A DNA stretch of 64,000 nucleotides, taken from assembly GCA_021299875.1 (NCBI GenBank), contig JAJTEW010000006.1:1-64000 (forward strand). Reading direction: 5' to 3'. Source of the stretch: Comamonadaceae bacterium (GTDB lineage: Bacteria; Pseudomonadota; Gammaproteobacteria; Burkholderiales; Burkholderiaceae_C). The position numbers and the translations under genes were made by a program. Below are positions 13,768 to 64,000 of the stretch, one piece after another (within the stretch, counting starts at the first letter, position 1; each line of letters opens with the position of its first letter). The notes below the pieces were generated by a model. It made no database searches. It was given only the letters and a program-made list of their open reading frames with translations, and was not told where the DNA came from.

Positions 13768-13881
13768 CGACCTGTTTTGCGACTTGCAGAACGCACGCCA
13801 TCCGCTTTTCCGGCAGTTGGCGCAAGTCATTGACCCGCCCAAATCCTTCACCGGACGCCAGCGAAACAACAAGGAAACACC

Positions 13882-14148
13882 ATGATTGCATCCTCCATCA
13901 AGGCCGAGGTCGTCAAAGCCAACGCACGCGCTGCCAACGACACCGGGTCCCCCGAAGTCCAGGTGGCGTTGCTGACAGCCCGCATCAACGAGCTGACACC
14001 CCACTTCAAAACACACGCCAAAGACCATCACGGTCGCCGCGGTTTGCTGCGCATGGTGAGCCGTCGCCGCAAGCTGCTGGACTACCTCAAGTCCCGTGAT
14101 GCAGACCGTTACGTTGCACTGATCGCCAAACTTGGCCTGCGCAAGTAA
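13882..14148 (+). CDS. rpsO: 30S ribosomal protein S15
   Basis: S15 binds 16S rRNA early in assembly of the small-subunit platform. The 88-residue length is normal. The conserved core is present: [48 protein letters not shown] and [24 protein letters not shown] precedes the ATG. The rpsO-pnp order is widely conserved; here a strong terminator separates the two genes. Confidence 0.98.
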
Positions 14149-14163
14149 TCGTCTCTCCAGATG

Positions 14164-14212
14164 AAAAGCGCCTGAGTTAGTTCACTAGCTCAGGCGCTTT
14201 ATTCTTTTTTTC
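14164..14212 (+). terminator. Intrinsic terminator after rpsO
   Basis: A 12-base perfect stem, AAGCGCCTGAG extended by flanking A/T pairs and its complement CTCAGGCGCTT, is followed by ATTCTTTTTTTCT. It begins 16 bases after the rpsO stop. Some read-through into pnp is likely, as in other bacteria. Confidence 0.9.
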
Positions 14213-14245
14213 TTCGGAATTTGACAGGGCGATCTCGCGCTGTGT

Positions 14246-14283
14246 CATTCCACAAGGCTTTGAATGCAAGGTTTTGTGGAATG
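14246..14283 (+). promoter_or_regulatory. Stem-loop in the pnp leader
   Basis: CATTCCACAA pairs perfectly with TTGTGGAATG around an 18-base loop, 73 bases before the pnp ATG. A TTGACA hexamer at 14221 may be the -35 of a pnp promoter, although the -10 at correct spacing is poor. In E. coli a leader hairpin cut by RNase III mediates pnp autoregulation; this element is in the matching place. Function is inferred. Confidence 0.5.
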
Positions 14284-14356
14284 GCATCGAGTTCAGAGCG
14301 TCAAATCCGGGCCCACAGTGCAGCCTCATGCGCTTTTGTTTTCAGGAGTTCTGAAC

Positions 14357-16462
14357 ATGTCTATTTTTAATAAAGTCACTAAAACATTCCAATGGGGCCA
14401 GCACACGGTCAAGATGGAAACCGGCGAAGTCGCCCGCCAAGCTGGCGGTGCGGTGTTGCTCGACATGGAAGGCACCGTGGTGCTCGCCACCGTCGTGGGT
14501 TCCAAGATCGCCAAAGCCGGTCAAGATTTCTTCCCCCTCACCGTCGATTACATCGAGAAGACTTACGCTGCGGGCAAAATCCCCGGCAGCTTTTTCAAGC
14601 GTGAAGCCAAGCCCAGCGAGCACGAGACCTTGACCAGCCGTCTGATTGACCGCCCCATCCGTCCGCTGTTCCCCGAAGGTTTCTACAACGACGTGCACGT
14701 GGTCATCCACACCGTGTCGTTGAACCCTGAGGTCGATGCGGACATCGCCGCCATGATCGCGGTGTCGGCTGCGCTGTCCATCTCGGGCATCCCGTTCAAC
14801 GGCCCCATCGGCGCCGCGCGCGTGGGTTACATCAACGGTGAGTACGTGCTCAACCCCGGTCAGACCCAGCGCAAAGACAGCGTGATGGATTTGGTCGTGG
14901 CCGGTACGGAAGCCGCTGTGCTGATGGTCGAATCCGAAGCCCTGCAACTGTCGGAAGAAATCATGTTGGGCGGAGTGGTTTATGGCCACGAGCAATCGGC
15001 GATTGCCATCAATGCCATCCACGAGCTGGTGCGCGAAGCCGGCAAGCCGGTCTGGGACTGGCAAGCGCCTGCCCGCGACACGACTTTTGAAGCCAAGCTG
15101 GCCACACTTGCCGAAGAAAAACTGCGTGCGGCTTACCAAATCCGCAACAAACAAGCCCGCACCCACGCTTGCCGCGAAGCCTATGCTTCGGTCAAAGTCG
15201 CTTTGGCCGAAGAGGGTGTGGCTTTTGACGGCGTCAAGCTCGATGGCCTGATGTTCGAGATCGAAGCGCGCATTGTGCGCAGTCAGATTTTGGCCGGTGA
15301 GCCCCGCATCGATGGCCGCGACACCCGCACGGTGCGCCCCATCGAAATCCGCAACAGCGTGCTGCCCCGCACCCACGGCTCGGCCCTGTTCACGCGCGGC
15401 GAAACCCAGGCTTTGGTGATCACCACTTTGGGCACCGAGCGCGATGCGCAGCGCATTGACGCACTGGCTGGCGAGTTCGAAGACCGCTTCATGTTCCACT
15501 ACAACATGCCTCCCTTTGCCACCGGCGAAGTGGGCCGCATGGGCTCGACCAAGCGCCGCGAAATCGGCCACGGCCGTTTGGCCAAGCGTGCTTTGGCTGC
15601 GGTGCTGCCGAGCAAAGAAGAGTTCCCCTACACGGTGCGTGTGGTGTCCGAAATCACCGAATCGAACGGCTCTTCTTCCATGGCTTCGGTCTGTGGCGGC
15701 TGCTTGTCGATGATGGACGCCGGTGTGCCGATGAAAGCCCACGTGGCCGGTATCGCCATGGGCCTGATCAAAGAAGACAACCGTTTTGCGGTGTTGACCG
15801 ACATTTTGGGTGACGAAGATCACTTGGGCGACATGGACTTCAAAGTCGCGGGTACCACCCACGGCATCACCGCGTTGCAGATGGACATCAAGATTCAGGG
15901 CATCACCAAAGAAATCATGCAAGTCGCTTTGGCCCAAGCCAAAGAAGCGCGCATGCACATTCTGGGCAAGATGCAAGAAGCGATGAGCCAAGCCAACACC
16001 GAAGTGTCTGATTTCGCACCCAAGCTCTTCACCATGAAGATCAACCCCGAGAAAATCCGTGATGTGATCGGCAAGGGCGGCGCGACCATCCGCGCCCTGA
16101 CCGAAGAAACCGGTTGCCAGATCAACATCTCGGAAGACGGCACGATCACCATCGCCGCCACCGACGGCGAGAAGGCCGAGATCGCCAAGAAACGCATCGA
16201 GCAGATCACCGCTGAAGTCGAAATCGGCAAGGTCTACGAAGGCCCTGTGACCAAGATCCTGGACTTCGGCGCCCTGATCAACCTGTTGCCTGGCAAAGAT
16301 GGTCTGTTGCACATCAGCCAGATTGCCCACGAGCGCGTCGAAAAAGTGACCGATTACCTGAGCGAAGGCCAAATCGTCAAGGTCAAGGTCATGGAAACCG
16401 ACGAAAAAGGCCGCATCAAGCTGTCGATGAAGGCTTTGTTGGACCGTCCTGCTCAGGGCTAA
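14357..16462 (+). CDS. pnp: Polynucleotide phosphorylase
   Basis: A phosphorolytic 3'-5' exoribonuclease of the RNA degradosome. The 701-residue protein has two RNase PH domains (about 1-215 and 310-550), a KH domain (about 555-615, with the loop [12 protein letters not shown]) and an S1 domain (about 620-695, [20 protein letters not shown]). Catalytic-core motifs are [20 protein letters not shown] and [19 protein letters not shown] chose ATG at 14357 ([14 protein letters not shown]), preceded by CAGGAG; the longer frame from 14264 reads through the leader hairpin. Confidence 0.97.
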
Positions 16463-19409: not shown

Positions 19410-19889
19410 ATGATTGAAGGCGTGATGAAGGAAGGCTTTGTCACCACGAGTTACGACTCGGTGGTGAACTGGGCCAAAACCGGTTCGCTTTGGCCCATGA
19501 CCTTTGGTTTGGCCTGCTGCGCGGTGGAGATGATGCATGCGGCGGCTGCGCGCTATGACTTGGGTCGTTTTGGTGCCGAGGTGTTCCGCGCCAGTCCGCG
19601 CCAAGCCGACTTGATGATCGTGGCCGGTACGCTGTGCAACAAAATGGCACCCGCTTTGCGCAAGGTGTATGACCAGATGTCCGAGCCGCGTTGGGTCATC
19701 TCGATGGGTTCTTGCGCCAACGGGGGTGGCTATTACCACTACAGTTACTCGGTGGTGCGTGGATGTGACCGGATTGTGCCGGTGGACGTGTATGTGCCGG
19801 GTTGCCCACCCACCGCCGAAGCCTTGATTTACGGCATCATGCAGCTGCAACAAAAAATTCGGCGCACGCACACCATTGCGCGTGCCTGA
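19410..19889 (+). CDS. nuoB: NADH-quinone oxidoreductase subunit B
   Basis: NuoB carries cluster N2, the last iron-sulfur centre before quinone. The 159-residue protein has the ligands in [36 protein letters not shown] and [14 protein letters not shown], including the adjacent Cys-Cys pair. It starts 42 bases after nuoA. Confidence 0.97.
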
Positions 19890-48542: not shown

Positions 48543-49517
48543 ATGAAGCGTCTTTCTTTTGTTTCTGTCGCTGGATTGGCCGCGACCGTCTTGGCCAGCG
48601 GCAGTGTTTGGGCGCAGGCTTATCCCAACAAAACCATCCGTTTGCAAGTGCCGTTTGCACCTGGCGGCACAACCGACATCGTGGCCCGCGTGATTGCCGA
48701 GCCCTTGGGCAAAGTTTTGGGTCAAAGCGTCATCGTTGAAAACAAAGCCGGTGGCGGTGGTGTGGTCGGGGCAACTGAAACCGCACGGACTGCACCCGAC
48801 GGCTATAACTTGGGCATGGCCACGGTGTCGACCACGGCCGCCAACCCAGCCATCAACCCCAAGATTCCGTACAACGTCCTGACCGACTTCACCCCCATCA
48901 TCAACATCGCGGCCACACCCAACGTGATCGCAGTGCACCCCAGTTTTCCGGCCAAGGACTACGCAGGCTTTTTGGCCGAAGTCCGTAAAAATCCCGGCAA
49001 GTACTCTTATGCCTCATCGGGCACAGGCGGCATTGGTCACCTGCAAACCGAGTTGTGGAAGAGCCTGACCGGCACCTTCATCACCCATATCCCCTACCGC
49101 GGTGCAGGCCCAGCCCTGAACGACACCGTGGCTGGCCAAGTGCCGATCATTTTTGACAACCTGCCTTCGGCTTTGCCGTTCATCCAATCTGGCCGTTTGG
49201 TGCCCATCGTGGTCGCCGCGCCCCAGCGCCTGACACAGCTGCCCAACGTGCCCACCTTCAAGGAAGTGGGTTTGGAGCCGGTCAACCGCATGGCTTACTA
49301 CGGCATCTTGGGACCCAAGAACTTGCCCAAGGAAGTGGTTGACAAAATCAGTGCTGGCGTGAAAAAAGCCCTGCAAGAGTCGGGTGTGACCAAGCGCATC
49401 AACGACACCGGCTCTTTGGTGGTGGCCAACACGCCGGAAGAGTTCACGGCCCAGATCAAGGCCGAGTTCGAGGTGTACAAGAAAGTCGTTGACCAGCAAA
49501 AACTCAAGCTGGACTGA
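48543..49517 (+). CDS. Bug-family tripartite tricarboxylate transporter binding protein (second)
   Basis: A periplasmic binding protein of 324 residues. The Sec signal peptide [20 protein letters not shown] precedes [20 protein letters not shown]. Other blocks are [60 protein letters not shown] and [15 protein letters not shown]. The ligand is unknown. AGGAG is 10 bases before the ATG. It is separate from the Bug gene at 36498 and clearly different in sequence. Confidence 0.93.
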
Positions 49518-49526
49518 TGCCAGTCC

Positions 49527-50435
49527 ATGCACGAGAGCAGCCAGAATGCCATTGACGGCTTTGCCGAGGCGCTCTGGCTGGAGGACGGACTGGCCATCCA
49601 CACCTTGGCCGCTTACCGTCAAGACCTGTCCCTCTTCGCCACCTGGCTTTTTTTAGCGCACAAGCTGGCGCTGGAGGCGACCCAAGAACACCACCTGCAG
49701 GCTTACTTTGCCGAGCGCCATGGCCAAACCAAGGCCACATCGGCCAACCGCAGGCTCAGCGTGTTCAAGCGCTTTTTCCGTTGGGCATTGCGTGAGCGCC
49801 GCACGTCGGTTGATCCCACTTTGCGCCTGTTGGCCGCCAAACAAGCGCTGCGTGTGCCCAAGACTTTGGGTGAGTCCCAAGTGGACGCTTTGTTGTGTGC
49901 GCCGGATGTGGACACCCATCTGGGTTTGCGGGACCGCGCCATGTTGGAGCTGATGTATGCCAGCGGCTTGCGCGTGAGCGAGTTGGTCGACCTCAAAACG
50001 CTGCATGTGTCCTTGAACGAAGGTGTGCTGCGCATCATGGGCAAGGGCAGCAAAGAACGCTTGGTGCCTTTTGGCGAAGAGGCGCGTGAATGGCTGCAGC
50101 GTTACATGGCGCAGGCCAGGCCCGCCATGTTGGGCCAGCGGCAGACCGAAGACCTCTTCATCACCACCAGCGGCCCCAAGCCCGGCACAGGCATGTCGCG
50201 CGTCATGTTTTGGAATTTGGTTAAGCGTTACGCGATCGAGGCGGGCATCACCGCGCCGCTGTCACCGCACACCTTGCGCCACGCCTTTGCGACGCACTTG
50301 CTCAACCACGGCGCCGATTTGCGGGCGGTACAAATGCTGCTGGGCCATGCCGACATTTCGACCACCACCATTTACACCCATGTGGCGCGTGAACGCCTCA
50401 AGACCCTGCACGCCCAGCACCACCCCAGGGGGTGA
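49527..50435 (+). CDS. xerD: Tyrosine recombinase XerD
   Basis: XerD, with XerC, resolves chromosome dimers at dif. The 302-residue protein has an N-terminal SAM-like core-binding domain (about 5-100) and a catalytic domain with the complete RKHRHY set: Arg in YASGLRVSELVDLK, Lys in MGKGSKERLVPF, His and Arg in LSPHTLRHAFATHLLNHGAD, His in LLGHADISTT and the nucleophile in TIYTHVARERL. Housekeeping context and full length make a phage integrase unlikely. Confidence 0.93.
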   Translation: MHESSQNAIDGFAEALWLEDGLAIHTLAAYRQDLSLFATWLFLAHKLALEATQEHHLQAYFAERHGQTKATSANRRLSVFKRFFRWALRERRTSVDPTLRLLAAKQALRVPKTLGESQVDALLCAPDVDTHLGLRDRAMLELMYASGLRVSELVDLKTLHVSLNEGVLRIMGKGSKERLVPFGEEAREWLQRYMAQARPAMLGQRQTEDLFITTSGPKPGTGMSRVMFWNLVKRYAIEAGITAPLSPHTLRHAFATHLLNHGADLRAVQMLLGHADISTTTIYTHVARERLKTLHAQHHPRG

Positions 50436-51332
50436 TCAGTCCAGCCGCGCGACCGTGACGGCCACTTCCAAGGTGTGCGCACCACCGCCTTGCAGCACGC
50501 CGCGCAGCGGCGAGACATCGGCAAAGTCGCGGCCCACAGCCAAACGCACATAGTCAACGCCTGGGCTGGCCCATCCTGTTCGGTTGTTCGTGGGGTCCAA
50601 GTCCAGCCAGCCTTGGCAGGCGTGGGTGGCCAGCTCGGGCAGGTAAACCGAGGCCCAAGCATGAGAAGCATCGCTGCCCAATAAACGGGGCTGGCCAGGC
50701 GGGGGTTGGGTCAGCAGGTAGCCGCTGACATAGTGGGCGGGCAAGCCGAGCGAGCGCAGGCAAGCCACCAAAATATGGGCAAAGTCTTGGCACACGCCGC
50801 GTTGCTGGGCCAGCGCTTCGAGGGCCGGGGTGTTGATGTCGGTGCTGGCGGTTTCATAGCGCAAGTCGCGGTGCATGCGCGCCGTGAGTTCTTGGGCGGC
50901 TTGCACCAAGGGGCGACCGGGTGTGAAGCTGCTTTGCGCATAGGCCAAAAACGCTTCGTGCACCGGTGCATGGTGTGAGCCAAACACACAGCGGCTGTGC
51001 ACGTCGCCCGCTTGGCCTGCCCGGTAACGAAAATGTTCGCGCACCGATTCCCAGCTTTGGGCGCTGGTGGCTTCGGGTGTTTCGTGGGTTTCAACCTCAC
51101 TGCAGGCCCGCACCCACAAGCCGTCGTGCGGGTGTGTCAATGCCCAATAGGCGCGGTGGTTCAAAAAAGCGTCGATGTTGTGCTGCACCGTGGCAACCGG
51201 TTCGATTTGTAAGGTGTGGTGAATGACTTTTTGGCAAGGGGTGTTGGCCGCTTGCAGGTGCGCCACATGCTGCGCGGTTTGCACGGCGGGGCTGTAGCGG
51301 TAGCGGGTGTCGTGGGTGATGGACAGGCGCAT
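50436..51332 (-). CDS. Transglutaminase-like protein with N-terminal beta domain
   Basis: A 298-residue cytoplasmic protein. Residues 1-90 form the bacterial transglutaminase-like N-terminal domain (MRLSITHDTRYRYSPAVQTA), followed by the TGc papain-like domain with the catalytic triad Cys in RGVCQDFAHILVACLRSLGL, His in DASHAWASVYLPEL and Asp in GWLDLDPTNN. Such proteins probably hydrolyse or transfer amide bonds. It is third in a minus-strand set after a DUF2126 transglutaminase and an ATP-grasp/alpha-E fusion. I chose ATG at 51332; the longer frame overlaps the fusion gene. Confidence 0.9.
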   Translation of the reverse strand: MRLSITHDTRYRYSPAVQTAQHVAHLQAANTPCQKVIHHTLQIEPVATVQHNIDAFLNHRAYWALTHPHDGLWVRACSEVETHETPEATSAQSWESVREHFRYRAGQAGDVHSRCVFGSHHAPVHEAFLAYAQSSFTPGRPLVQAAQELTARMHRDLRYETASTDINTPALEALAQQRGVCQDFAHILVACLRSLGLPAHYVSGYLLTQPPPGQPRLLGSDASHAWASVYLPELATHACQGWLDLDPTNNRTGWASPGVDYVRLAVGRDFADVSPLRGVLQGGGAHTLEVAVTVARLD

Positions 51333-51346
51333 AGGGTTTCGGCTTA

Positions 51347-54016
51347 TCAGACACTGACGCTGAAGCGGGCTTCGCCGCTGTGCGTGAAAAACAGGGCGCA
51401 CAGCTGGTCCGAGACTTGCCTGGCTGCGCTTTCGCAATCGTTCAAAGTGTTTTGCAATGGCAAAGGCGGGTCGTTGTCGCTCAAGGCTGCGCCGACAGGC
51501 CAGAGCGACGCGGCGTTGACGCCATGCCAATCGGGCAAACCTTGGGCCAAAGCCAAGGTGGCCCCATCGGCCAGCGTGCCCATGCGCCGCAGACGACCGC
51601 GCAAGGTGTGCGCCACCCAGCCGAGCGACCGCGGGTTGTCCGGATCGGTCACCAGCAGTTCGATCAGGGCTTGGGGTGTTCGGCTTTGTTGGTGTTGGGC
51701 ATGGAAACTGATGGTGCTGTCAAACAGCTCGAGCACCGCATCGAACCCGGCTTGCTCGGCGATCAGGCCCAACTGCACTGCTTCGCTCAAGGCGTGGGAT
51801 AAAAACGCCAGGCGTTCAATGTGGCGACCCATCGAGAGAAAACGCCAACCGTCGTCACGGCTCATGCGGTCGGTTTGTGCCCCTGTGAGGGCGGCCAGCA
51901 TTTGGCTGGTGTCTGCCAAGAGACCTTGCACCGATGCGGTATCAAGGACGGTGCCCCGTTGTGCGCTCGGCGTTTCAGGTGCACTCAGGTCTTCGTGCGG
52001 TTTGAAAAATCGCGCTTCGGCCTGCTCGAGCAACCGCCAGTGCTCGGGCGACAGGCGCTCACGCACCGAGGCCGCGGCCAGTCGTACCGAGCGCAAGTTG
52101 AAGCCGACGCTGGTGGCCAGCTCTTGGTCCCACAGCCCCGCGATCAGGGAGCGCTCAAACACCCGGTGCGCTTGGCCTGCAGGGGGCACACCGGCCGGCA
52201 CCAAGCCATGGTGGGTGGCCATGCGGGTGATGAAGTTCAGCAGACAAGGCAGGTTCTGGTTTTCTCCGTTCAGAACTTCCAGACCCAGACGCACCAAGCG
52301 CAAGGTGTTTTCGGTGCGTTCGGTATAACGACCCATCCAGAACAGGTTTTCTGCGGCACGGCTCGTGACCAGGCGCTGGCGCTGTGCGCTGGCATCGCTG
52401 GCGGTCGGTATGCGGCTGGTGGCCGAGGGCGGGGCAGGCGGTGTGGACTGGGATGGCGTTTGCACCCACACGTCGGCGCTGGAGCCGCCGCGTTGCATCG
52501 TGGCGATGCCTTCGCGTGTGCCCAAGCGGGCCAAGCCGCCGGGCAAGACTTGCCAACCGCCTTGCGCATCGGTGACGGCAAAGACCCGCAACACCACCGG
52601 TCGCGACCCGATGCTGGAGTCGCCATCGGTTCGGGCTTGCCAAGTGGGTTGGTGCGACAAGGGCAACCACGACTGCAGCGTGTGGGCGTCGGGGTCGCGC
52701 AAGATGCGGCCTGCCCATTCGTTCTGCTCTTGGCGTGACAGGCTGTGGCCCAGCACGGGCTCAAAGCTTTGACGGTCGGTGTGGTACGGGTAAGTGGGTT
52801 TGATCACGCAGCTGGGGATGCGGGGCAACACGTCTTGCAGCGCAGCAGCTTCGCCGCACCACCAGCTGGGGATGGCGGGAAGCACCAGCGCTTGGCCCAA
52901 CAGGGTTTTGGCCAGTGCCGGCATGAAACCCAGCAGCGCGTTCGATTCCAAAAACCCCGAGCCAGGGGTGTTGGCCACCAGGACGTTGCCGCTGCGCACC
53001 GCCTGCAGCAGACCGGGCACACCCAAGCTGGACTCAGCGCGCAGCTCCAGCGGGTCCAGCCAGTCGTCGTCCACGCGTTTGAGCAAGCCGTGCACTGGCT
53101 GCAGGCCTTGCAAGGTTTTGAGGTACAGCTTTTGGTCGCGCACCGTCAGGTCGTTGCCCTGCACCAAGCTCAGGCCCAGATAGCGGGCCAGGTAAGCGTG
53201 TTCAAAATAGGTTTCGTTGTAGGGGCCGGGGGTCAAGAGCGCGATGTGCGCCAAGGCACCGGCTGGGCTTCTGGCCTTGATCCCGTCGATCAGCGTGCGG
53301 TAGGTCTGTGCCAGGCGCTGCACGGGCATGGCCTCAAAGGCTTGCGGAAATTGCCGCGACACGATCTGCCGGTTTTCGATCAAGTAGCCCAAACCCGAAG
53401 GCGCTTGTGTGCGCTGGGACAGCAGCCACCAAAGGCCGTCCGGCCCACGCGCCAAATCAAACGCGGCCAAGGACAAAAAACGCCCACCCACCGGGGCCAC
53501 GCCGTGCATGGCGGGCAAATACGCCGGGTGGCCTTGCACCAAAGCAGCGGGCAGTTGGCCACTCAGCACCAGTTGCTGCGGCCCATAGGCGTCGGCCATG
53601 ATGTTTTCCAGCAATTGCATGCGCTGCAGCACGCCCGATTCAATCTGCTGCCAATCGTTGTGGCCCAGCATGAGCGGGAACAAATCCAGCGACCAAGGGC
53701 GTTGCGGTTGGTCGGCGGCGGCGTACACGTTGTAGGTGATGCCGTTGTCGCGCACTTGCCGCTGCACGTGTTGCATTTGGGTGTTCAGCTCGGCTTCGCA
53801 GGCCTGCGCTGACTTGTCCAGTGGGTCGATGAAGCGCTGCCACAGGCTGCTCACGGTCTGCGTCGCCAGGGGGAGGCTGGGAGTTGGGTTGGGCGGGGTG
53901 ACCGCGCCCCGCAGCTCGTCCCAATGCCCAGCGGGTGCCCGCTCTTGCTCAAGCGCCAACCAGTTCAGGGTGTGCGCTTCGTGGGTGGTGTTCGGTGATT
54001 GCGAAGGCCCATTCAT
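51347..54016 (-). CDS. Circularly permuted ATP-grasp fused to alpha-E domain
   Basis: An 889-residue fusion. Residues 80-540 form a circularly permuted type 2 ATP-grasp ligase (DUF404/DUF407 type), with DNGITYNVYAAADQPQRPWS, LLTPGPYNETYFEHAYLARY, RVDDDWLDPLELRAESSLGV and LPGGLARLGTREGI. From about residue 550 an alpha-helical alpha-E domain (DUF403) starts at SRAAENLFWMGRYTERTENT. Stand-alone versions of both halves occur in this window at 60384-62827. ATP-grasp enzymes ligate carboxylates to amines; substrate and product here are unknown. It overlaps the DUF2126 gene by 4 bases. Confidence 0.9.
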   Translation of the reverse strand: MNGPSQSPNTTHEAHTLNWLALEQERAPAGHWDELRGAVTPPNPTPSLPLATQTVSSLWQRFIDPLDKSAQACEAELNTQMQHVQRQVRDNGITYNVYAAADQPQRPWSLDLFPLMLGHNDWQQIESGVLQRMQLLENIMADAYGPQQLVLSGQLPAALVQGHPAYLPAMHGVAPVGGRFLSLAAFDLARGPDGLWWLLSQRTQAPSGLGYLIENRQIVSRQFPQAFEAMPVQRLAQTYRTLIDGIKARSPAGALAHIALLTPGPYNETYFEHAYLARYLGLSLVQGNDLTVRDQKLYLKTLQGLQPVHGLLKRVDDDWLDPLELRAESSLGVPGLLQAVRSGNVLVANTPGSGFLESNALLGFMPALAKTLLGQALVLPAIPSWWCGEAAALQDVLPRIPSCVIKPTYPYHTDRQSFEPVLGHSLSRQEQNEWAGRILRDPDAHTLQSWLPLSHQPTWQARTDGDSSIGSRPVVLRVFAVTDAQGGWQVLPGGLARLGTREGIATMQRGGSSADVWVQTPSQSTPPAPPSATSRIPTASDASAQRQRLVTSRAAENLFWMGRYTERTENTLRLVRLGLEVLNGENQNLPCLLNFITRMATHHGLVPAGVPPAGQAHRVFERSLIAGLWDQELATSVGFNLRSVRLAAASVRERLSPEHWRLLEQAEARFFKPHEDLSAPETPSAQRGTVLDTASVQGLLADTSQMLAALTGAQTDRMSRDDGWRFLSMGRHIERLAFLSHALSEAVQLGLIAEQAGFDAVLELFDSTISFHAQHQQSRTPQALIELLVTDPDNPRSLGWVAHTLRGRLRRMGTLADGATLALAQGLPDWHGVNAASLWPVGAALSDNDPPLPLQNTLNDCESAARQVSDQLCALFFTHSGEARFSVSV

Positions 54017-57000
54017 CGGTTCATTGTCGTTGATCCACAGCGACGCAAATCCAGCGTGTAAGGGAACTCCGGGCTGGCGTGCAGCAGGCCGTTGGGTTGC
54101 AGGGTGGGCTGTTGTGTCATCGCCCCGGGCGTGTGGCCCATGCGGAAGAAGCGGGCCAGGCGGCGGCTTTCGGCTTCGTAGGCGTTGACCGGGAAGCTGT
54201 CGTAATGGCGGCCACCGGGATGCACCACGTGGTATTGACAGCCGCCCAGAGAGCGCTTCATCCAGGTGTCCACCAGGTCCACCGTCAGCGGCGCATGCAC
54301 GCCGATGCTCGGGTGCAGCGACGAGGGCGGGTTCCAGGCTTTGTAGCGCACGCTGGCCACGTACTCGCCCACCACGCCAGTGGGCTGCAGGGGCAGGGGG
54401 TGGCCGTTCACGGTGACGGTGTGGCGCGCCGGGTTCATGCCGCTCACATGCACCTCGATGCGCTCGAGCGACGAGTCCACATAACGGGCGGTGCCGCCCG
54501 CACTGCTTTCTTCGCCCATGACGTGCCAGGGCTCCAGCGCGTTGCGCAACGTGACGACCGCGCCATCGACCCGGACCTGCCCGACCAGCGGGAAGCGGAA
54601 CTCGAAATGCGGCGCAAACCAGCTCGGGTCAAAGTGAAAGCCCGCATCCCCCAGCTCGGTCAGCACATCGTCAAAGTCTTTGTGGATCCAGTGCGGCAGC
54701 ATGAAGCGGTCGTGCAGCTCGGTGCCCCAACGGGTCACGGGTGCTGAATAGGGCGCACCCCAAAAGCGCGCCACCAGCGCGCGCAGCAGCAACTGCTGCA
54801 CGATGCTCATGCGGGCGTGCGGCGGCATCTCAAACGCCCGCAACTCCAGCAGACCCAGCCGCCCGGTGCTGCTGTCGGGGGAGTACATCTTGTCGATGCA
54901 AAACTCGCTGCGGTGGGTGTTGCCCGTGACGTCCACCAGGATGTTGCGCAGGCTGCGGTCCACCACCCAAGGCGGCATGTCTTTGCCATGGTTTTGCCGA
55001 TGGCGCACGATCTCGCGCAGGGCGATTTCCAGCTCATAGACCTGGTCATTGCGCGCTTCGTCCACGCGCGGGGATTGGCTGGTGGGGCCGATGAACAGGC
55101 CGCTGAACAAATAACTCAAGCTCGGGTGGTTGTGCCAATAAAGGATGAGGCTGGCCAGCAATTCGGGGCGGCGCAAAAACGGGCTGTCTGCCGGTGTGGC
55201 CCCGCCCATCACCATGTGGTTGCCGCCACCCGTGCCCGCGTGGCGGCCGTCGGTCATGAACTTCTCGGCCGACAGGTGCGTCTCGAAAGCGGCCTGGTAC
55301 AAAAACTCGGTGTGGTCCACCAGCTCGGTCCAGTTGTGGGCCGGGTGGATGTTGACCTCGATCACGCCGGGATCGGGAGTGACTTGCAGCAGTTTGAGGC
55401 GCGGGTCTCGTGGGGGCGGGTAGCCTTCCATGACGATCTTCATGCCCAGCTGCCGCGCCGTGGCTTCGACCGCGCTGACCAGCGACAGGTAGTCTTCGAG
55501 GCGCGCCAGCGGCGGCATGAAGACATAAAGAACGCCGGATTTCATGCCAGACTTTTCGCCTTTTTTCAGGGCCTCGGCTTCGGCTTTGGGACCGTTGGCG
55601 CGGATCGGGTCGCGCACTTCCACGCACAAGGCGGTGCGTACCACCGAGGGGTCCGACTTGAACTTGGAGGGAACGGCTTGCGCAGCCACTGCCGTGTGGG
55701 TTGCGCTGCCTTGAGGGCTTGCCGTGGTGTGCCTGGGCTGCATCGCGACTGGGGGCGCTGTGGGCAAAGCCGTGCGCGGGGCAAACGGATCGAGCCCGGT
55801 CATGTGCCAGCGGTCTGTCGGCGCGGCCCAGGGCAGCGAGTCCAACGGCAGACGCCAACCCATGGGGGAGTCGCCGGGCATCAGGTACATGCGCTCATCG
55901 CGCACAAACCAACGACCGGTTTGCCACTGGATTCGCTGCCCTGGACCGCTCTGTTCGGGCGTGACGGTTTCAACTGCTTGCAAGGGCAGCACATAGCCCA
56001 CCGCCGAGTCCAGACCCTGGCTGAAGATGCGGCGCAGGCGGATGCGCTCCATTTCGTCGTCCAGACGGGCGTCAAAGGGATCCACATTCACCGGCAATCG
56101 GCGTTCGCGCCACAGGTAGTACCAGGTGTCTTCGTAGCCCGGCAGCACGGTGTCAGCGGGCAGGCCCAGTTGCTGTGTCAGGGTCTGCAAGAAACGTTTG
56201 GCGTCGGCGCTGGTGTAGCGGCTGGGTTCGCGTTCGTCGGCCAACACGGCGGGGTCTTGCCAGCAGGGCGTGCCGTCGGCGCGCCAGTAAATGGACAGCG
56301 CCCAGCGTGGCAGCTGCTCACCTGGGTACCACTTGCCTTGACCAAAGTGCAAAAAACCACCTTGCCCGTATTGCTGGCGCAGCTTGTGCACCAGTTCGGT
56401 GGCCAGCCCCCGCTTGGTGGGCCCCAAGGCATCGGTGTTCCACTCGGCTCCGTCACGGTTTTGGGTGGACACAAAGGTGGGCTCGCCGCCCATGGTCAGG
56501 CGCACGTCTTGCGCCACGAGTTGCGCGTCCACGCGATCGCCCAGCGCCAAGACTTCGGCCCATTGCGCATCGCTGTAGGGTTTGGTCACGCGGGGGGACT
56601 CGTGGATGCGGGTCACGCTCATCTTGTGGTGGAACTCGACTTCGGCTTCGTCCATCAAGCCTTCGATCGGCGCGGCAGCAGACGGCTGCGGTGTGCAAGC
56701 CAGTGGAATGTGACCTTCGCCCGCCAGCAGGCCCGAAGTCGGGTCCAGCCCGACCCAGCCAGCGCCGGGCAAATACACCTCGCACCAGGCGTGCAGGTCG
56801 GTGAAATCGACTTCGGTGCCGCTCGGGCCATCGAGTGATTTCACGTCGGGCGCCAGCTGAATCAAATAGCCCGAGACAAAGCGGGCGGCGATGTTCATGT
56901 GGCGAAACAGCTGCACCAGCAGCCATGCCGAGTCGCGGCAGGAGCCGCTTTTGAGGGTCAGCGTTTCTTCGGGCGTTTGCACCCCCGGCTCCATGCGGAT

Positions 57001-57477
57001 GGTGTAGCGGATGTCCTGGTGCAGGCGCTGATTTGTCTGCACCAAAAATTCGATGGTGCGCTGGCGTTGGCGGTTGAGGCTGGCCAGGTATTTTTTGAAC
57101 AAGGGCGTTTTGGAGTCCTTGTCCAGATACGACTGGAGTTCTTCACGCACCGTGTCGGCGTATTTGAAGGGCACCTCTTCGGCCGAAGGCTCTAGAAAAA
57201 AATCAAAAGGATTGAACACGGCCATTTCGGTGACCAGGTCCACGGTCACTTTGAAGGCGCTGGTTTTTTGAGGGAACACCAAGCGCGCTTGGTAGTTGGC
57301 AAAAGCGTCTTGCTGCCAGTTGATGAAGTGCTCTGCGGGTTCCACCTGGAGGCTGTAGCTCAGGATGCGGCTGCGGCTGTGCGGCGCGGGGCGCAGGCGG
57401 ATGACTTGGGGGCCGAGCTGCACGGGACGGTCGTAGGTGTAGTGGGTGACGTGGTGCAGGGCAACGTGTATCGACAT
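54013..57477 (-). CDS. Large transglutaminase with DUF2126 domain
   Basis: A 1154-residue protein. The N-terminal beta domain (MSIHVALHHVTHYTYDRPVQ) precedes a TGc domain with Cys in LKSGSCRDSAWLLVQLF, His in DFTDLHAWCEVYLPGAGWVG and Asp in LDPTSGLLAGEGHIPLA. From about residue 320 the DUF2126 region follows, with TMGGEPTFVSTQNRDGAEWN, HFGQGKWYPGEQLPRWAL and GTGGGNHMVMGGATPADSPF, a segment resembling glutamine-synthetase-fold amidoligases. I chose ATG at 57477. The reaction is unproven. It is the first of three overlapping or closely spaced minus-strand genes. Confidence 0.9.
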   Translation of the reverse strand: MSIHVALHHVTHYTYDRPVQLGPQVIRLRPAPHSRSRILSYSLQVEPAEHFINWQQDAFANYQARLVFPQKTSAFKVTVDLVTEMAVFNPFDFFLEPSAEEVPFKYADTVREELQSYLDKDSKTPLFKKYLASLNRQRQRTIEFLVQTNQRLHQDIRYTIRMEPGVQTPEETLTLKSGSCRDSAWLLVQLFRHMNIAARFVSGYLIQLAPDVKSLDGPSGTEVDFTDLHAWCEVYLPGAGWVGLDPTSGLLAGEGHIPLACTPQPSAAAPIEGLMDEAEVEFHHKMSVTRIHESPRVTKPYSDAQWAEVLALGDRVDAQLVAQDVRLTMGGEPTFVSTQNRDGAEWNTDALGPTKRGLATELVHKLRQQYGQGGFLHFGQGKWYPGEQLPRWALSIYWRADGTPCWQDPAVLADEREPSRYTSADAKRFLQTLTQQLGLPADTVLPGYEDTWYYLWRERRLPVNVDPFDARLDDEMERIRLRRIFSQGLDSAVGYVLPLQAVETVTPEQSGPGQRIQWQTGRWFVRDERMYLMPGDSPMGWRLPLDSLPWAAPTDRWHMTGLDPFAPRTALPTAPPVAMQPRHTTASPQGSATHTAVAAQAVPSKFKSDPSVVRTALCVEVRDPIRANGPKAEAEALKKGEKSGMKSGVLYVFMPPLARLEDYLSLVSAVEATARQLGMKIVMEGYPPPRDPRLKLLQVTPDPGVIEVNIHPAHNWTELVDHTEFLYQAAFETHLSAEKFMTDGRHAGTGGGNHMVMGGATPADSPFLRRPELLASLILYWHNHPSLSYLFSGLFIGPTSQSPRVDEARNDQVYELEIALREIVRHRQNHGKDMPPWVVDRSLRNILVDVTGNTHRSEFCIDKMYSPDSSTGRLGLLELRAFEMPPHARMSIVQQLLLRALVARFWGAPYSAPVTRWGTELHDRFMLPHWIHKDFDDVLTELGDAGFHFDPSWFAPHFEFRFPLVGQVRVDGAVVTLRNALEPWHVMGEESSAGGTARYVDSSLERIEVHVSGMNPARHTVTVNGHPLPLQPTGVVGEYVASVRYKAWNPPSSLHPSIGVHAPLTVDLVDTWMKRSLGGCQYHVVHPGGRHYDSFPVNAYEAESRRLARFFRMGHTPGAMTQQPTLQPNGLLHASPEFPYTLDLRRCGSTTMNR

Positions 57478-57684
57478 ATCTTGTTCAGCGCAACAGGGGC
57501 TGCACGCATGACAAATGCAGCTTGGGCGATTACAACTAGCAAGACACGCGCCAGCAAAGCTGCGCCGGTTCATCCAAGCCAGAGCCCTTCAAAGTGCTGG
57601 CGAACAGCCGCTGCGTGTGAAGACAAGCGGGCCAAGACCCGCCCATCCCATCAACAGCCAATTCAGGGAGGCTGACGTGAAGCG

Positions 57685-60318
57685 ATGCTGCACCAGAGCG
57701 CTCGATCTGTTGACCGTGGGTGTCCAGGGGGCATGCCCATGATGGCCATGAGCTGGGCACGTGTTTTGGGGGTGAGCCTCTTGGCTTGGAGCTTGGGGGT
57801 GGCCCTTCAGTTGCAACAAACGGCTTTGTGGCCCACGCTGCTGTACGCCTTTGGGCTGGCCCTGTCGTGCGCTGTGGCTTGGGCCCTGCGGCAAGCCGCT
57901 TTGGGGCACCGACTGGCCATGCTGGCTTGGGGTTTGCTGTGGGCTTGGTCGGCTTTTGCTGTGACCGGCTTGCACGCCCAGGCGCGCTCATGGGCCATGT
58001 CGGCGTCTTTGGAGGGGCAAGAGTTGGACGTGGTGGGCGTGGTGCAAGCCATGCCCCAAAGGCAAGACCTGGGTTGGCGCTTTCGTTTTCGGATCGAACA
58101 AGCTTGGCGGGTGGATGCAGCGGGCGTGGTGCAGCCCGTGGACCTGTCACGCGACTTGCCCGCGCTGGCCTATTTGGGTTGGTACGCTCAGGACGCTGCA
58201 CACGACAGCGGCTGGCAACTGACGGCCTTGCCCGAGCCGGTGCAGGCTGGTGAGCGCTGGCGATTGCGGGTGCGCCTGAAAGCGCCGCACGGCCACATGA
58301 ACCCGCGTGGTTTTGACTACGAATTGTGGCTGTGGGAGCAGGGCATCCACGCCACAGGCCATGTGCGTACCCGGGCCAAAGACCCGCCGCCAGTGCGGTT
58401 GGGCCGCACCTGGATGCACCCCATCGAGGGCTGGCGCCAAACGGTGCGCGACCGTTTGTTGACGCACTTGGCGGGGCCTGGCACCGATGCCGATGCCGCC
58501 AAGCGTGCCGGGGTGTTGGCGGCCCTGGTGTTGGGCGATCAGGCGGCCATTGACCGCAGCGATTGGGATGTGTTCAGGGCCACGGGGGTGGCGCACTTGA
58601 TGAGCATTTCCGGCTTGCATGTGACCATGTTTGCCTGGTTGGCCGCTGCCCTGGTGGGTTGGGCTTGGCGGCGATCGGCCTTGTGGGGTGTTTCTGGCCC
58701 CACGAAATGGCCTGCGGTGCACGTGGGCGCCGTGGCGGGTTTGTTTTTGGCCGGCTTTTATGCCTTGTTCAGTGGTTGGGGATTGCCTGCGCAACGCACT
58801 TTGCTGATGCTGGGGGTGGTGGTGGTGCTCAGGGTCTCGGCCCGGCACTGGCATGGCGCTTTGGTTTGGCTGATGGCGTGTGCTGTGGTGCTGGCCTGGG
58901 ACCCTTGGGCTTTGCTACAGCCCGGTTTTTGGTTGAGTTTTGTGGCCGTTGGGGTGTTGATGGCTTCTGACCCGTATGGTCAGCGACCAGCCGCAGACGC
59001 ACCAGAAGGGGGTGCGAGCAACGCACCGACTTGGCGTGACGGTGCCAAGGCTCACGCCTTTTGGCACCGCTTCGGTGCATGGGTGTATTCGGGGTGGCTC
59101 GCTGGGGTGTGGCCCAAGCTTGGGTCCTTGCTGCGCGAGCAAGCCAAGATCACTTTGGCGTTGGCACCGTTGACCCTGCTGTTTTTTGGGCAGGTGTCTT
59201 TGGTGGGTTTGTTGGCCAATGTGTTGGCCATTCCCTGGGTGACCTTGGTCATCACGCCGCTGGCGCTGCTGGGGGTGATGAACCCTGGATTTTGGGACTT
59301 GGCCTCATGGGCCTTGCAGCCTTTGTCGGTCCTGTTGGCTTGGCTGTCTGCCTGGCCGCTGGCCAGCGTCTCCAGCGCCATGCCGCCCTGGAGTTTGGCC
59401 CTGCTGGCGCTGACGGGGGCTTGGGGCTTGGTGCTGCGCATGCCTCTGTCTTGGAAGCTGCTGTGCTTGCCCCTGCTTTGGCCCGTCTTGTTTTGGTCGC
59501 CGCCACGTCCGGTGCACGGTCAGTTTGAGTTGTTGGCCGCCGATGTGGGGCAGGGCAATGCGGTCTTGGTGCGCACCGCCAAGCACAGCCTTTTGTACGA
59601 CGCGGGACCACGTTATTCCGCTGAAAGCGATGCAGGACACCGCGTGCTGGTGCCCTTGTTGGCCCAAATGGGCGAGCGGCTGGCTGTGCTGATGCTCAGC
59701 CACCGGGACAGCGACCACACGGGCGGCGCGGCTGCGGTGCTGGCCATGCAGCCCCAAGCGGCGCTGTGGTCTTCACTCGAAGACGAGCACCCTTTGCATG
59801 CCCTCAGACCGGGTTGGACCCGTTGCCATGCGGGGCAGTCCTGGGTGTGGGATGGGGTTGTCTTTGAGGTGTTGCATCCGCCGCCTTCGGCCTTGCAGCC
59901 GAAAAAGCCCAAGCCCAACGAAGTCAGTTGCGTGTTGCGCATCGGCACCCCGCAGGGCAGCGCCTTGCTGGCCGGAGACATCGAGGCCCGGCAAGAGTGG
60001 TCGCTGGTCAACCTTGGTTTGAGCCCGGTGGATGTGTTGCTGGCCCCGCACCATGGCAGCAAAACCTCGTCGAGCCAGCCCTTTTTGCAGGCCTTGCAGC
60101 CCCGGATCGTGCTGGTGCAGGCGGGTTACCGCAACCGGTTTGGCCACCCGGCGCCTGAGGTGGTGGCGCGTTATGCCCAACAAGGCAGCCAACTGGTCGA
60201 GAGCACCCGTTGCGGTGCGGCCACCTGGCGCAGCCAAGCCCCTGCGCAGGTGCAGTGCGAACGGGCCGAGCGGCAACGGTATTGGCACCGCAAAGGGGTG
60301 CAACCCGTCCCACCTTGA
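57685..60318 (+). CDS. comEC: DNA internalization / competence protein ComEC (Rec2)
   Basis: ComEC forms the inner-membrane channel for single-stranded DNA uptake in natural transformation. The 877-residue protein has an N-terminal membrane and soluble domain (about 20-230), a Competence domain with many helices (HLMSISGLHVTMFAWLAAAL onward) and a C-terminal metallo-beta-lactamase-like domain (LLAADVGQGNAVLV, LMLSHRDSDHTGG, LLAPHHGSKTSSS). Start could be ATG 57685 (GGGAGG 12 bases before) or ATG 57733. It lies between the two ATP-grasp clusters without obvious functional relation. Confidence 0.92.
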   Translation: MLHQSARSVDRGCPGGMPMMAMSWARVLGVSLLAWSLGVALQLQQTALWPTLLYAFGLALSCAVAWALRQAALGHRLAMLAWGLLWAWSAFAVTGLHAQARSWAMSASLEGQELDVVGVVQAMPQRQDLGWRFRFRIEQAWRVDAAGVVQPVDLSRDLPALAYLGWYAQDAAHDSGWQLTALPEPVQAGERWRLRVRLKAPHGHMNPRGFDYELWLWEQGIHATGHVRTRAKDPPPVRLGRTWMHPIEGWRQTVRDRLLTHLAGPGTDADAAKRAGVLAALVLGDQAAIDRSDWDVFRATGVAHLMSISGLHVTMFAWLAAALVGWAWRRSALWGVSGPTKWPAVHVGAVAGLFLAGFYALFSGWGLPAQRTLLMLGVVVVLRVSARHWHGALVWLMACAVVLAWDPWALLQPGFWLSFVAVGVLMASDPYGQRPAADAPEGGASNAPTWRDGAKAHAFWHRFGAWVYSGWLAGVWPKLGSLLREQAKITLALAPLTLLFFGQVSLVGLLANVLAIPWVTLVITPLALLGVMNPGFWDLASWALQPLSVLLAWLSAWPLASVSSAMPPWSLALLALTGAWGLVLRMPLSWKLLCLPLLWPVLFWSPPRPVHGQFELLAADVGQGNAVLVRTAKHSLLYDAGPRYSAESDAGHRVLVPLLAQMGERLAVLMLSHRDSDHTGGAAAVLAMQPQAALWSSLEDEHPLHALRPGWTRCHAGQSWVWDGVVFEVLHPPPSALQPKKPKPNEVSCVLRIGTPQGSALLAGDIEARQEWSLVNLGLSPVDVLLAPHHGSKTSSSQPFLQALQPRIVLVQAGYRNRFGHPAPEVVARYAQQGSQLVESTRCGAATWRSQAPAQVQCERAERQRYWHRKGVQPVPP

Positions 60319-60383
60319 TCCGCCCTGGGGTGAATTTCGGGGTGGGTATACATCTTGCTAAACCTGAACAGGAGTGAAGACCC

Positions 60384-61836
60384 ATGCGCCAATTCGATGA
60401 GATGTACAGCCGCCTGCCTGAAGCGGCACAAGACGGGGAGGTCAGAGAGCACTACCGAACCTATGCCCGCTGGTTGCAAGCGCAAGACAGCCAAACCATG
60501 GCAGCGCGCCGGGATGATTTTCAGACGGGTGGGCATCACCTTTGCCGTGTATGGCGACAAAGACGAAGACGCGAACACGGACGAGGGGGGTACCGAGCGC
60601 CTGATCCCGTTTGACCTGATCCCTCGCGTGATCGCCGCGCCCGATTGGACAAGCATGGAAGCCGGGCTGGTGCAACGCGTCACGGCTTTGAACCGCTTCA
60701 TCCACGATGTGTACCACGAGCAAGAAATTTTGAAGGCTGGCGTGATCCCGCGTGAGCAGATTGAGCGCAACGCGCAATTTCGCCCTGAAATGGTGGGCGT
60801 GAATGTGCCCAACCACATTTATTCGCACATCAGCGGCATCGACATCGTGCGGGCCCCCGACGCACAAGGCAAGGGCGAGTACTACGTGCTGGAAGACAAC
60901 CTGCGTGTGCCCAGCGGTGTGAGTTACATGCTGGAAGACCGCAAGATGATGATGCGGCTATTCCCGAAGTTGTTCAGCCAGCACCGCGTGGCCCCGGTGG
61001 CGCATTACCCCGATTTGCTGCTCGAGACTCTGCGCGCCTCCAGCCCCGCCACCACGGCCGAGCCCACGGTGGTGGTGCTCACCCCCGGCATGTACAACAG
61101 TGCTTACTTTGAGCACGCGTTTTTGGCCCAGCAAATGGGGGTGGAGTTGGTCGAAGGGCAAGACCTGTTTGTCAAAGACCAATTTGTCTACATGCGCACC
61201 ACACGCGGCCCCAAGCGGGTGGATGTGATCTACCGCCGGGTAGACGATGACTTTTTAGACCCACAAGTTTTCCGCTCCACCTCCACTCTGGGGTGTGCCG
61301 GCTTGATGGACGCCTACAAAGCGGGCCACGTGGCCATTTGCAACGCGGTGGGTACCGGGGTGGCCGACGACAAGTCGGTCTACCCCTATGTGCCCGACAT
61401 GATCAAGTTTTATTTGGGCGAAGAACCCATCCTGAAAAACGTGCCGACCTTTCAGTGCCGCAAGCCCGACGACTTGCAGTACACCTTGGCCCACCTGAAA
61501 GACCTGGTGGTCAAGGAGGTGCACGGCGCGGGCGGCTACGGCATGCTGGTGGGTCCAGCCTCGACCCAAGAAGAAATTGAGCGCTTTCGCGCGGCCTTGC
61601 TGGCCAACCCCGAGGGCTACATCGCGCAGCCCACGCTCAGTTTGTCCACTTGCCCGACCTATGTGGACAGTGGCATTGCCCCGCGCCACATCGACCTGCG
61701 CCCCTTTGTGCTGAGTGGCCGCACGGTGCAAATGGTGCCCGGGGGCCTGACGCGTGTGGCGTTAAAAGAAGGTTCTTTGGTGGTGAACTCGTCACAGGGC
61801 GGCGGCACCAAAGACACCTGGATTTTGCAGGACTGA
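60384..61836 (+). pseudogene. Circularly permuted ATP-grasp protein, frameshifted near the 5' end
   Basis: The family N-terminus is read from ATG 60384 (MRQFDEMYSRLPEAAQDGEV, then REHYRTYARWL) with AGGAG 10 bases before it. After RR near 60510 homology continues in the next frame (MIFRRVGITFAVYGD) to the stop at 61836. The total of 1453 bases is one more than a multiple of three. The rest is intact: LEDNLRVPSGVSYMLEDRKM, VVLTPGMYNSAYFEHAFLAQ, YRRVDDDFLDPQVFRSTSTL, VKEVHGAGGYGMLVGP and MVPGGLTRVALKEGSLVVNS. Relatives have about four more residues at the shift, so an 11-base deletion between ATGA repeats is likely. Internal initiation at ATG 60513 would lose about 45 residues. Confidence 0.85.
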
Positions 61837-61849
61837 CAAGGAAATCACC

Positions 61850-62827
61850 ATGCTTTCAAGAACCGCCGACCACTTGTTCTGGATGTCCCGCTACATGGAG
61901 CGGGCCGAAAACACCGCACGCATGCTCAATGTGAGCTATGAGACCTCGCTCTTGCCCCAGTCGGCCGCCGCCGTCGAAGCCGGTTGGGAGGGTCTTTTGT
62001 CCATCAGCGAGTTGTTGCCGTCCTACCTGGCGCTGTACAAAAACATCAACCCCCGCGATGTGATGGCCTTCATGGTGCGCGACGAGAGCAACCCCTCGTC
62101 CATTCTGTCTTGCCTGCGTGCAGCGCGAGAAAACGCCCGCGCTGTGCGCGGCACCCTGACCACCGAAGTGTGGGAGACGCAAAACCAGACTTGGCTGGAG
62201 GTCAATCGCATGCTCAAAAGCGGCGATTTTGAGCGCGACCCGGGTCAATTTTTTGAATGGGTGAAGTTTCGCTCTCACCTGTCACGCGGCGTGACGGTGG
62301 GCACCATGCTGATGGACGAGTCGCTGTACTTCATGCGCATGGGCACATTTTTGGAGCGGGCCGACAACACGGCGCGTTTGGTGGACGTGAAATTCCACGC
62401 CATGCAAAACGACTTTTTTGGCGCGCCGCAATACGGCGCCCCTGAGACAGAAAGCGCGCAGGAATACGACTTCTACCACTGGAGCGCCATCTTGCGCAGC
62501 GTGAGCGGATTTGAGGTCTACCGCAAGGTCTACCGCGACGTGATTCGCCCCGAGCGGGTCGCCGAATTGCTGATCTTGCGGCCCGACATGCCACGCTCTT
62601 TACTGGCCAGCCTGAACGAGGTGGTGTCGAATTTGAAGCTGGTCTCGCACGACGCCGACAGCGACACCTTGCGCCAGGCGGGCCGTTTGCGCTCGGAGTT
62701 GGCCTTTGGCCGCATTGACGAAATCTTGGCCACCGGCCTGCATGCCTACCTGACACAGTTTCTCGAACGGGTGAATGTGCTGGGTGGGCGCATCAGCCGA
62801 GAGTTTTTGATGCCTCAGGCGGCCTGA
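61850..62827 (+). CDS. Alpha-E domain protein (DUF403)
   Basis: A 325-residue all-helical protein beginning MLSRTADHLFWMSRYMERAE, the alpha-E signature, with a second copy-like segment GTFLERADNTARLVDVKFHA and the motif FMVRDESNPSSILSCLRAAR. The family is always tied to circularly permuted ATP-grasp genes and is thought to help make or bind the ligated product; its activity is unknown. It starts 13 bases after the ATP-grasp stop. Confidence 0.92.
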   Translation: MLSRTADHLFWMSRYMERAENTARMLNVSYETSLLPQSAAAVEAGWEGLLSISELLPSYLALYKNINPRDVMAFMVRDESNPSSILSCLRAARENARAVRGTLTTEVWETQNQTWLEVNRMLKSGDFERDPGQFFEWVKFRSHLSRGVTVGTMLMDESLYFMRMGTFLERADNTARLVDVKFHAMQNDFFGAPQYGAPETESAQEYDFYHWSAILRSVSGFEVYRKVYRDVIRPERVAELLILRPDMPRSLLASLNEVVSNLKLVSHDADSDTLRQAGRLRSELAFGRIDEILATGLHAYLTQFLERVNVLGGRISREFLMPQAA

Positions 62828-62828
62828 T

Positions 62829-64000
<1,172 letters not shown>

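Follow-up and report, generated by a model that had tools for sequence, protein, structure and literature searches.

Five enzyme genes that flank comEC in a 64,000-nucleotide (nt) stretch of a Comamonadaceae bacterium genome (GenBank assembly GCA_021299875.1, contig JAJTEW010000006.1, positions 1 to 64,000; hereafter the window) appear, with modest confidence on our part, to form one split system together with Anbu, which is encoded beside mutS elsewhere in the genome. The system would be switched on by sigma-54 at nitrogen shortage and would make and break amide bonds on a peptide or protein. The plus-strand genes (set A) encode a circularly permuted ATP-grasp and an alpha-E protein. The minus-strand genes (set B) encode a DUF2126 protein, a small transglutaminase-like protein and, between them, a fusion in which a circularly permuted ATP-grasp is joined to alpha-E. 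Across genomes of the family, comEC-ATP-grasp-alpha-E plus mutS-Anbu replaces the four-gene Anbu operon. A first-pass annotation had described a double transglutaminase, ATP-grasp, and alpha-E locus around comEC as a predicted amide-bond system; all six gene products were recovered in Pfam and NCBIfam scans, and the comparisons below support a conserved amidoligase and transglutaminase system with Anbu as one of its members.

The Anbu gene lies on contig C8 (31544-32371; 275 amino acids, beginning MTYCVAV), in the same orientation as mutS and 11 nt behind it, and the ATP-grasp and alpha-E genes lie on contig C21 behind comEC. The first-pass annotation saw no Anbu, which is true of the window; the genome-wide search that it called for found this gene, the sole PF00227 match. 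Its product matches the sequences of five Anbu structures in the PDB (5loy, 5nyw, 5nyj, 5nyf, and 5lox). Thr1, Asp17, and Lys32, taken from the active-site residues listed in the available text of PMC6376114, are kept in 32 of 32 Anbu genes compared, this genome's included. Exactly two alpha-E and two circularly permuted ATP-grasp domains were found in the genome, all inside the window. The gene content of an Anbu system (ATP-grasp, alpha-E, transglutaminase, and Anbu) is therefore present in one genome, as a split variant and not as one operon.

To place this layout, 100 family genomes from 99 genera were searched for DUF2126, alpha-E, Anbu, ComEC, and MutS, which were found in 66, 86, 81, 94, and 98 genomes, respectively. 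Anbu is linked to a solo alpha-E gene (at most 5 kilobases (kb) apart) in 11 genomes, and in none of the 11 is comEC upstream of alpha-E or Anbu downstream of mutS. Of the 73 genomes with solo alpha-E and without linked Anbu, 49 have a co-oriented comEC no more than 5 kb upstream of alpha-E, and the number rises to 60 when 16 kb is allowed. Unlinked Anbu follows mutS on the same strand, at most 4 kb from the MutS_V start, in 55 of 70 genomes, and the two traits occur together in 47.

Conservation over dozens of genera, when every other flanking family recurs in 9 or fewer of the compared loci, might suggest a role for the system in DNA uptake or repair. We consider this very improbable and do not adopt it, because the ATP-grasp gene has its own sigma-54 element after comEC, comEC itself has none (0/12), and linked operons lack either neighbor. 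The comEC link is moreover a trait of the window's family. In an order-level survey of 150 genomes, alpha-E was present in 81, of which 80 of the solo type were used after one weak match (G209) was dropped; of the 71 with comEC, all 4 family members have it no more than 16 kb upstream of alpha-E, as do 2 of the 67 others. Overall, comEC is probably not part of the mechanism.

The split is also bridged in one close relative. In Limnohabitans sp. 15K (locus L234), genes for the fusion, transglutaminase, alpha-E, ATP-grasp, DUF2126 protein, Anbu, and MutS fall within 13.4 kb (2473-15888 of the locus), and comEC was unmatched in the 21 kb fetched. In other loci the position of set B varies: it may diverge from comEC, as it does in the window, form a single row with set A, or lie at another site. 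Some loci exist as duplicates under two names (e.g., L072/L235, L122/L258, and L121/L273). In one order-level genome (G127, contig C33), four alpha-E matches were found, three of them within about 10 kb.

A tree of 45 Anbu genes places all 34 detached genes in one well-supported group, joined there by a single linked gene (G037); the remaining 10 linked genes fall outside, and long branches are flagged among the linked rows. In the locus of that one linked gene (L097) the order is Anbu, ATP-grasp, alpha-E, as if Anbu had been re-linked. With regard to a single origin of detached Anbu, a constraint separating all detached from all linked Anbu was not rejected (approximately unbiased test, p-AU 0.35). 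The trees are unrooted and therefore do not distinguish gain from loss.

Anbu and alpha-E also occur together. Among the 100 family genomes, 80 have both, 6 have alpha-E only, 1 has Anbu only, and 13 have neither (Fisher p 5e-11, uncorrected for descent). In the sole Anbu-only genome (G016), ComEC is also unmatched, as though this region were absent. On a MutS tree of the 67 genomes whose MutS DNA was fetched, a sample that favored linked and alpha-E-less genomes, nine independent pairs differ in alpha-E on supported branches. Anbu follows alpha-E in a median of seven of these pairs and goes the opposite way in none (sign test, median p 0.016). That Anbu and alpha-E appear and disappear jointly, and that they are clustered again in Limnohabitans sp. 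15K, points to one substrate shared by the ligases and the proteasome-like particle.

Set B appears to be an accessory of set A, because solo alpha-E is present in 64 of the 66 DUF2126 genomes and DUF2126 is missing from 20 of the 84 genomes with set A. Of the two exceptions, one genome is 65% complete, and in the other the plus-type ATP-grasp gene runs off a contig end. Those 20 genomes could alternatively point to two separate pathways that share a neighborhood and yield separate products, one formed by set A and Anbu and the other by set B, which would have a ligase and hydrolases of its own. The absence of DUF2126 from 9 of the 11 linked Anbu operons would fit this, as would the separate sigma-54 element of each set and the named Pseudomonas loci, which hold DUF2126, fusion, and transglutaminase genes with no set A genes in the stretch fetched. 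We find two pathways doubtful, given the near-constant presence of set A beside DUF2126, the frequent occurrence of both sets in one gene row (e.g., L076, L077, L108, and L254), the lack of an intact ATP-grasp in the fusion, and the lack in most split-layout copies of set A of a transglutaminase of their own.

Regulation would join the two sets. We searched for -24/-12 elements of the sigma-54 type (TGGCAC-N5-TTGC[AT], at least 9 of 11 positions, up to 200 nt upstream), counting only genes with an aligned start at most 12 residues away from that of the query and with 150 nt of upstream DNA; the window's own ATP-grasp gene was excluded because of a frameshift. Elements precede 76 of 116 DUF2126 genes (mean of 2.2 in shuffled sequence) and 34 of 42 plus-type ATP-grasp genes (0.6), or 60 of 92 and 30 of 38 after near-copies were thinned. 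A natural control is provided by DUF2126 genes behind alpha-E (alpha-E start on the same strand, at most 1.5 kb upstream), of which 1 of 23 has the element, versus 75 of 93 otherwise. Counts in control sets were 5/109 for the small transglutaminase (2.2 shuffled), 1/84 for alpha-E (1.7), and 0/8 for mutS. Separate regulation, which the first-pass annotation had listed as grounds for refutation, was thus not borne out for the two sets; Anbu lacks the element. Elsewhere in the window, a perfect 10/10 sigma-54 core, TGGCACCCGCTTTGCG, occurs at 19645-19660.

NtrC-like sites matching 11 of 12 positions were found upstream of 5 of 116 DUF2126 genes (0.15 shuffled) and 4 of 42 ATP-grasp genes (0.1), and in none of five control sets. 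At 10 of 12 positions the excess is modest (18/116 versus 5.5 shuffled, and 8/42 versus 1.5, respectively). The Limnohabitans sp. 15K locus has an NtrC-like site (11/12) midway between its divergent promoters. A palindrome-like stretch (GGCACC...GGTGCA) upstream of the plus ATP-grasp gene has the wrong spacing for NtrC and was not counted.

That systems of this type respond to nitrogen is already known from data published for Pseudomonas putida and Burkholderia cenocepacia, and an amide-bond system of this kind was predicted in 2009, as cited in the available text of later papers; the description "undescribed pathway" in the first-pass annotation was therefore too strong. In the portions of PMC7801951 available to us, nitrogen limitation raises P. 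putida PP_2686-2688 in the wild type by 11- to 15-fold and in a relA/spoT mutant by 17- to 37-fold, the change for the Anbu gene PP_2685, at 1.1- to 4.8-fold, is far below that of the other three genes, and the authors assign the PP_2685-2688 operon to NtrB/NtrC. The accessible part of PMC5491218 reports B. cenocepacia I35_5080-83 as 6- to 9-fold lower in an ntrC mutant and as a common NtrC/sigma-54 target. In those parts of the literature that we covered, no product is reported for these families, and we found no earlier mention of an element on both sets, a dead fusion ligase, or the mutS/comEC split; Iyer 2009, Valas and Bourne 2008, and Hervas 2009 lay outside this coverage. No tie of Anbu to mutS or comEC appears among the literature matches listed. 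From the available text of PMC8407117, a circularly permuted ATP-grasp gene is among association hits in Sinorhizobium, which we did not use as evidence.

The closest known systems share the families and differ in layout. The Anbu operons of P. putida (PP_2685-2688) and Yersinia bercovieri have the same ATP-grasp, alpha-E, and Anbu families; here, in contrast, Anbu is behind mutS, ATP-grasp and alpha-E are behind comEC, set A lacks a transglutaminase of its own, and the DUF2126 set is added. B. cenocepacia I35_5080-83 has the same families (DUF404/407, DUF403, transglutaminase, and a large transglutaminase protein) in one cluster, whereas the window has two divergent sets around comEC. From their layout, we take Mycobacterium Rv2566-Rv2569c to be a DUF2126, fusion, and transglutaminase set, and Rv2409c-Rv2411c an ATP-grasp, alpha-E, and transglutaminase set, so that a single genome has both, as here.

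Not all of the apparent ligases are predicted to be active. An ExN pair, a Gly-rich loop, a Lys, and an RxDDD motif are seen in the main frame of the window's plus ATP-grasp and in all 44 relatives aligned (75% query coverage was required, which 44 of 46 ATP-grasps and 35 of 36 fusions passed). The ExN pair (E180 and N182) is missing from the fusion ATP-grasp in every relative examined (35/35 in the family, 19/19 in other families of the order, where one of 20 fetched was cut by a contig end, and 30/30 phylum-wide), and the fusion is therefore predicted to be a pseudo-ligase. The Gly-rich loop is likewise missing as a motif from fusions; single glycine positions are kept in at most 10/35, 3/20, and 3/30, with positions after E180/N182 gapped in three phylum-wide rows. 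Both ATP-grasps resemble 3n6x, a circularly permuted ATP-grasp of Methylobacillus flagellatus (E 1.9e-201 for the plus ATP-grasp and 4.5e-74 for the fusion); the fusion differs from it in lacking the loop and the pair. The first-pass annotation had named loss of catalytic residues as a refutation, and such loss is seen in the fusion ATP-grasp and not in the plus ATP-grasp. Its "double" locus consists of two sets, as stated, and is not a simple double copy.

The assignment of the ExN pair rests on the motif (E-D-N within LEDNLRxPSG), on fold similarity (2hgs and 1m0w for the fusion), and on the ligands of eukaryotic (human) glutathione synthetase, from which we presume its role, since mapping onto another synthetase failed: hhalign of the ATP-grasp onto E. 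coli Gss for metal ligands gave a probability of 0.03 and was unusable. A profile search of the PDB with the ATP-grasp returned 3n6x alone.

Because the fusion ATP-grasp lacks the predicted catalytic residues, only the plus ATP-grasp and the C-terminus of the DUF2126 protein look like ligases. The DUF2126 protein has an N-terminal transglutaminase-like domain and a C-terminal domain that, by fold comparison of a predicted model, has the glutamine-synthetase fold, with glutamine and gamma-glutamylmethylamide synthetases as neighbors; we predict a glutamine-synthetase-like amidoligase. Diphtheria-toxin rows in its Foldseek list were dismissed as noise (probability at most 0.16, TM-score to query 0.06-0.08). 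The closest named-record matches of the DUF2126 protein are in Limnohabitans sp. 15K (90%) and L. radicicola (89%). A Cys-His-Asp triad is present in both transglutaminase domains of the window. It is kept in the small transglutaminase of set B relatives (C 36/36, H 36/36, and D 35/36) and in 16 of 16 aligned relatives of the DUF2126 domain, which are the 16 of 36 that reached 75% query coverage, as the search split matches. An extra open frame of 748-751 amino acids in two family genomes (G050, contig C38, and G063, contig C39) is a divergent paralogue of DUF2126, which it matches in two distinct regions.

We suggest the following mechanism, in which folds are our guide to reaction and product. 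Amide bonds would be made by the DUF2126 C-terminal domain and the plus ATP-grasp, which would use ATP to activate a carboxylate for coupling to an amine. The fusion would not ligate; its dead ATP-grasp and alpha-E domains may hold the substrate or a partner. Transglutaminase-type domains would hydrolyze or transfer the amide, and Anbu, from a mutS unit that lacks the sigma-54 element, would trim or degrade the product. Sigma-54 would act here with NtrC, so that nitrogen shortage induces the ligases and transglutaminases, and Anbu, which has no element and is often behind mutS, would always be present; the weak nitrogen response of PP_2685 fits the latter. According to the available text of PMC6376114, phosphate is freed from ATP by the ATP-grasp of Y. 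bercovieri, and Anbu peptidase activity was not found.

Alternatively, and compatibly with one system, the products could be small peptide-like metabolites, such as a nitrogen store or an amidated compound, recycled by Anbu and the transglutaminases. We hold this to be a real possibility, somewhat short of an even call. The fold neighbors (glutathione, glutathionylspermidine, glutamine, and gamma-glutamylmethylamide synthetases) make small molecules, Iyer 2008, in the text available, saw no Pup-like open reading frame (ORF) beside the DUF2126 family, and the accessible part of PMC3597751 ties these domains to urea metabolism in marine metagenomes. Against this, a particle with the proteasome fold is an odd tool for a small molecule, and Fuchs et al. 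2017 (PMC5666114), in the portion available, judged peptide synthesis less likely.

A role at the protein end of the range would be a proteobacterial counterpart of pupylation, which we regard as quite improbable. At nitrogen shortage, two ligases induced via sigma-54 would tag proteins through a non-ribosomal amide, the conserved dead ATP-grasp/alpha-E protein would read or present the tag, transglutaminase domains would remove it, and Anbu, always on from the mutS unit, would degrade the proteins and free nitrogen. Anbu is a proteasome homologue, and the DUF2126-type ligase domain is in PafA's carboxylate-amine ligase superfamily (Iyer 2008, available text). The proteolytic subunit is different in pupylation. 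To our knowledge, neither a Pup nor an AAA partner is known for the system described here.

Whether set A works in this strain depends on its ATP-grasp gene. From the ATG at 60384, supported by a conserved N-terminus and in a different frame from the main ORF, the first codons (MRQFDEMYSRLPEAAQ...) are out of frame with the remainder. The shift is near 60505-60530, after about 40 codons, where the gene, from a codon count by hand, lacks about 11 nt relative to that of the congener L072. This may be a real deletion or an assembly error in what is a 22-contig draft, and set A may be impaired in this genome unless it is the latter. Set A could thus be decaying here, with the locus on its way out. 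We think this unlikely, as frames are open in the alpha-E, fusion, DUF2126, transglutaminase, and Anbu genes, and the ATP-grasp is in frame in L072/L235 and L234.

Several observations weigh against one split, sigma-54-switched system. The frameshift weakens the case for a working set A in this strain, and the absence of DUF2126 from 20 of 84 genomes with set A, the six family genomes with alpha-E and no Anbu, and the two of nine MutS-tree pairs with no Anbu difference (p range 0.008-0.0625) loosen the association. Unlinked Anbu is away from mutS in 15 of 70 genomes, and of the 73 genomes that have no linked Anbu, 13 lack the comEC block. The structural model of DUF2126 is weak (pLDDT 67), and a Foldseek search with it had no glutamine synthetase among the best 50. 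No NtrC-like site of at least 10/12 was found upstream of DUF2126 in the window. Sigma-54-like sites occur upstream of 2 of 32 Anbu genes (0.35 shuffled), and small control sets are above chance (fusion 1/5 versus 0.05, xth 1/4 versus 0.08). PP_2686-2688 are still up 14- to 20-fold in an rpoN mutant (PMC7801951, Table 2, in the part available), which speaks against strict sigma-54 dependence in P. putida.

The families concerned are widespread: of 100 family genomes, 66 have DUF2126 and 86 have alpha-E, and alpha-E is present in 81 of 150 genomes of the order. What can now be tested are the possible ligases (the plus ATP-grasp and DUF2126, not the fusion), the timing (nitrogen limitation), and the genes that belong together though distant (the comEC-linked set and mutS-linked Anbu).

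Features of the comEC region in the window, with the evidence for each
Feature	Position	Strand	Evidence
Small transglutaminase-like protein, Cys-His-Asp triad	50436..51332	-	Pfam; 3isr E 1.3e-9
Fusion of circularly permuted ATP-grasp (predicted pseudo-ligase) and alpha-E	51347..54016	-	CP_ATPgrasp_2 3e-133; Alpha-E 3.5e-56
DUF2126 protein	54013..57477	-	Pfam Bact_transglu_N, Transglut_core, DUF2126 1328 bits
Sigma-54 type -24/-12 element TGGCGCGTGTCTTGCT	57538..57553	-	10/11 positions; 76 nt before DUF2126 ATG
comEC, conserved upstream neighbor of set A	57685..60318	+	TIGR00361
Weak sigma-54-like element GGGTATACATCTTGCT	60344..60359	+	8/11 by hand count; 40 nt before ATP-grasp ATG, same distance in relatives
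Circularly permuted ATP-grasp of set A, predicted active-type ligase	60384..61836	+	Pfam 2.4e-165; 3n6x E 1.9e-201
Alpha-E protein of set A	61850..62827	+	Pfam 320 bits, 1.9e-95

Set B is transcribed on the minus strand in the order DUF2126 protein, fusion, small transglutaminase, and is tightly packed, as the first-pass annotation had noted: the first two genes overlap by 4 nt and a gap of 14 nt precedes the third. Conserved N-termini place the DUF2126 start at ATG 57477 and most likely the small transglutaminase start at ATG 51332, rather than at TTG 51530 of the ORF. Adjoining the small transglutaminase, at 48543-50435, are a gene resembling a tripartite-tricarboxylate type receptor and a xerD-like recombinase gene (both named by eye); the latter was unmatched in the L072 locus of the congener.

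In set A, no transglutaminase gene stands beside alpha-E; an xth-like gene (named by eye) follows instead, on the opposite strand, and converges with alpha-E at a one-base gap (62827-62829). The genome has three transglutaminase cores, the third of which is on contig C19 (228 amino acids, GWC and HGYAD motifs). It was rejected as the missing partner of set A, with about 31% identity over about 100 residues to either type. This third core (C19 of this genome, G000, 111265-111951; 7266-7952 of locus L010) lies apart from the system, beside a gene that by eye is metallo-beta-lactamase (MBL)-fold-like.

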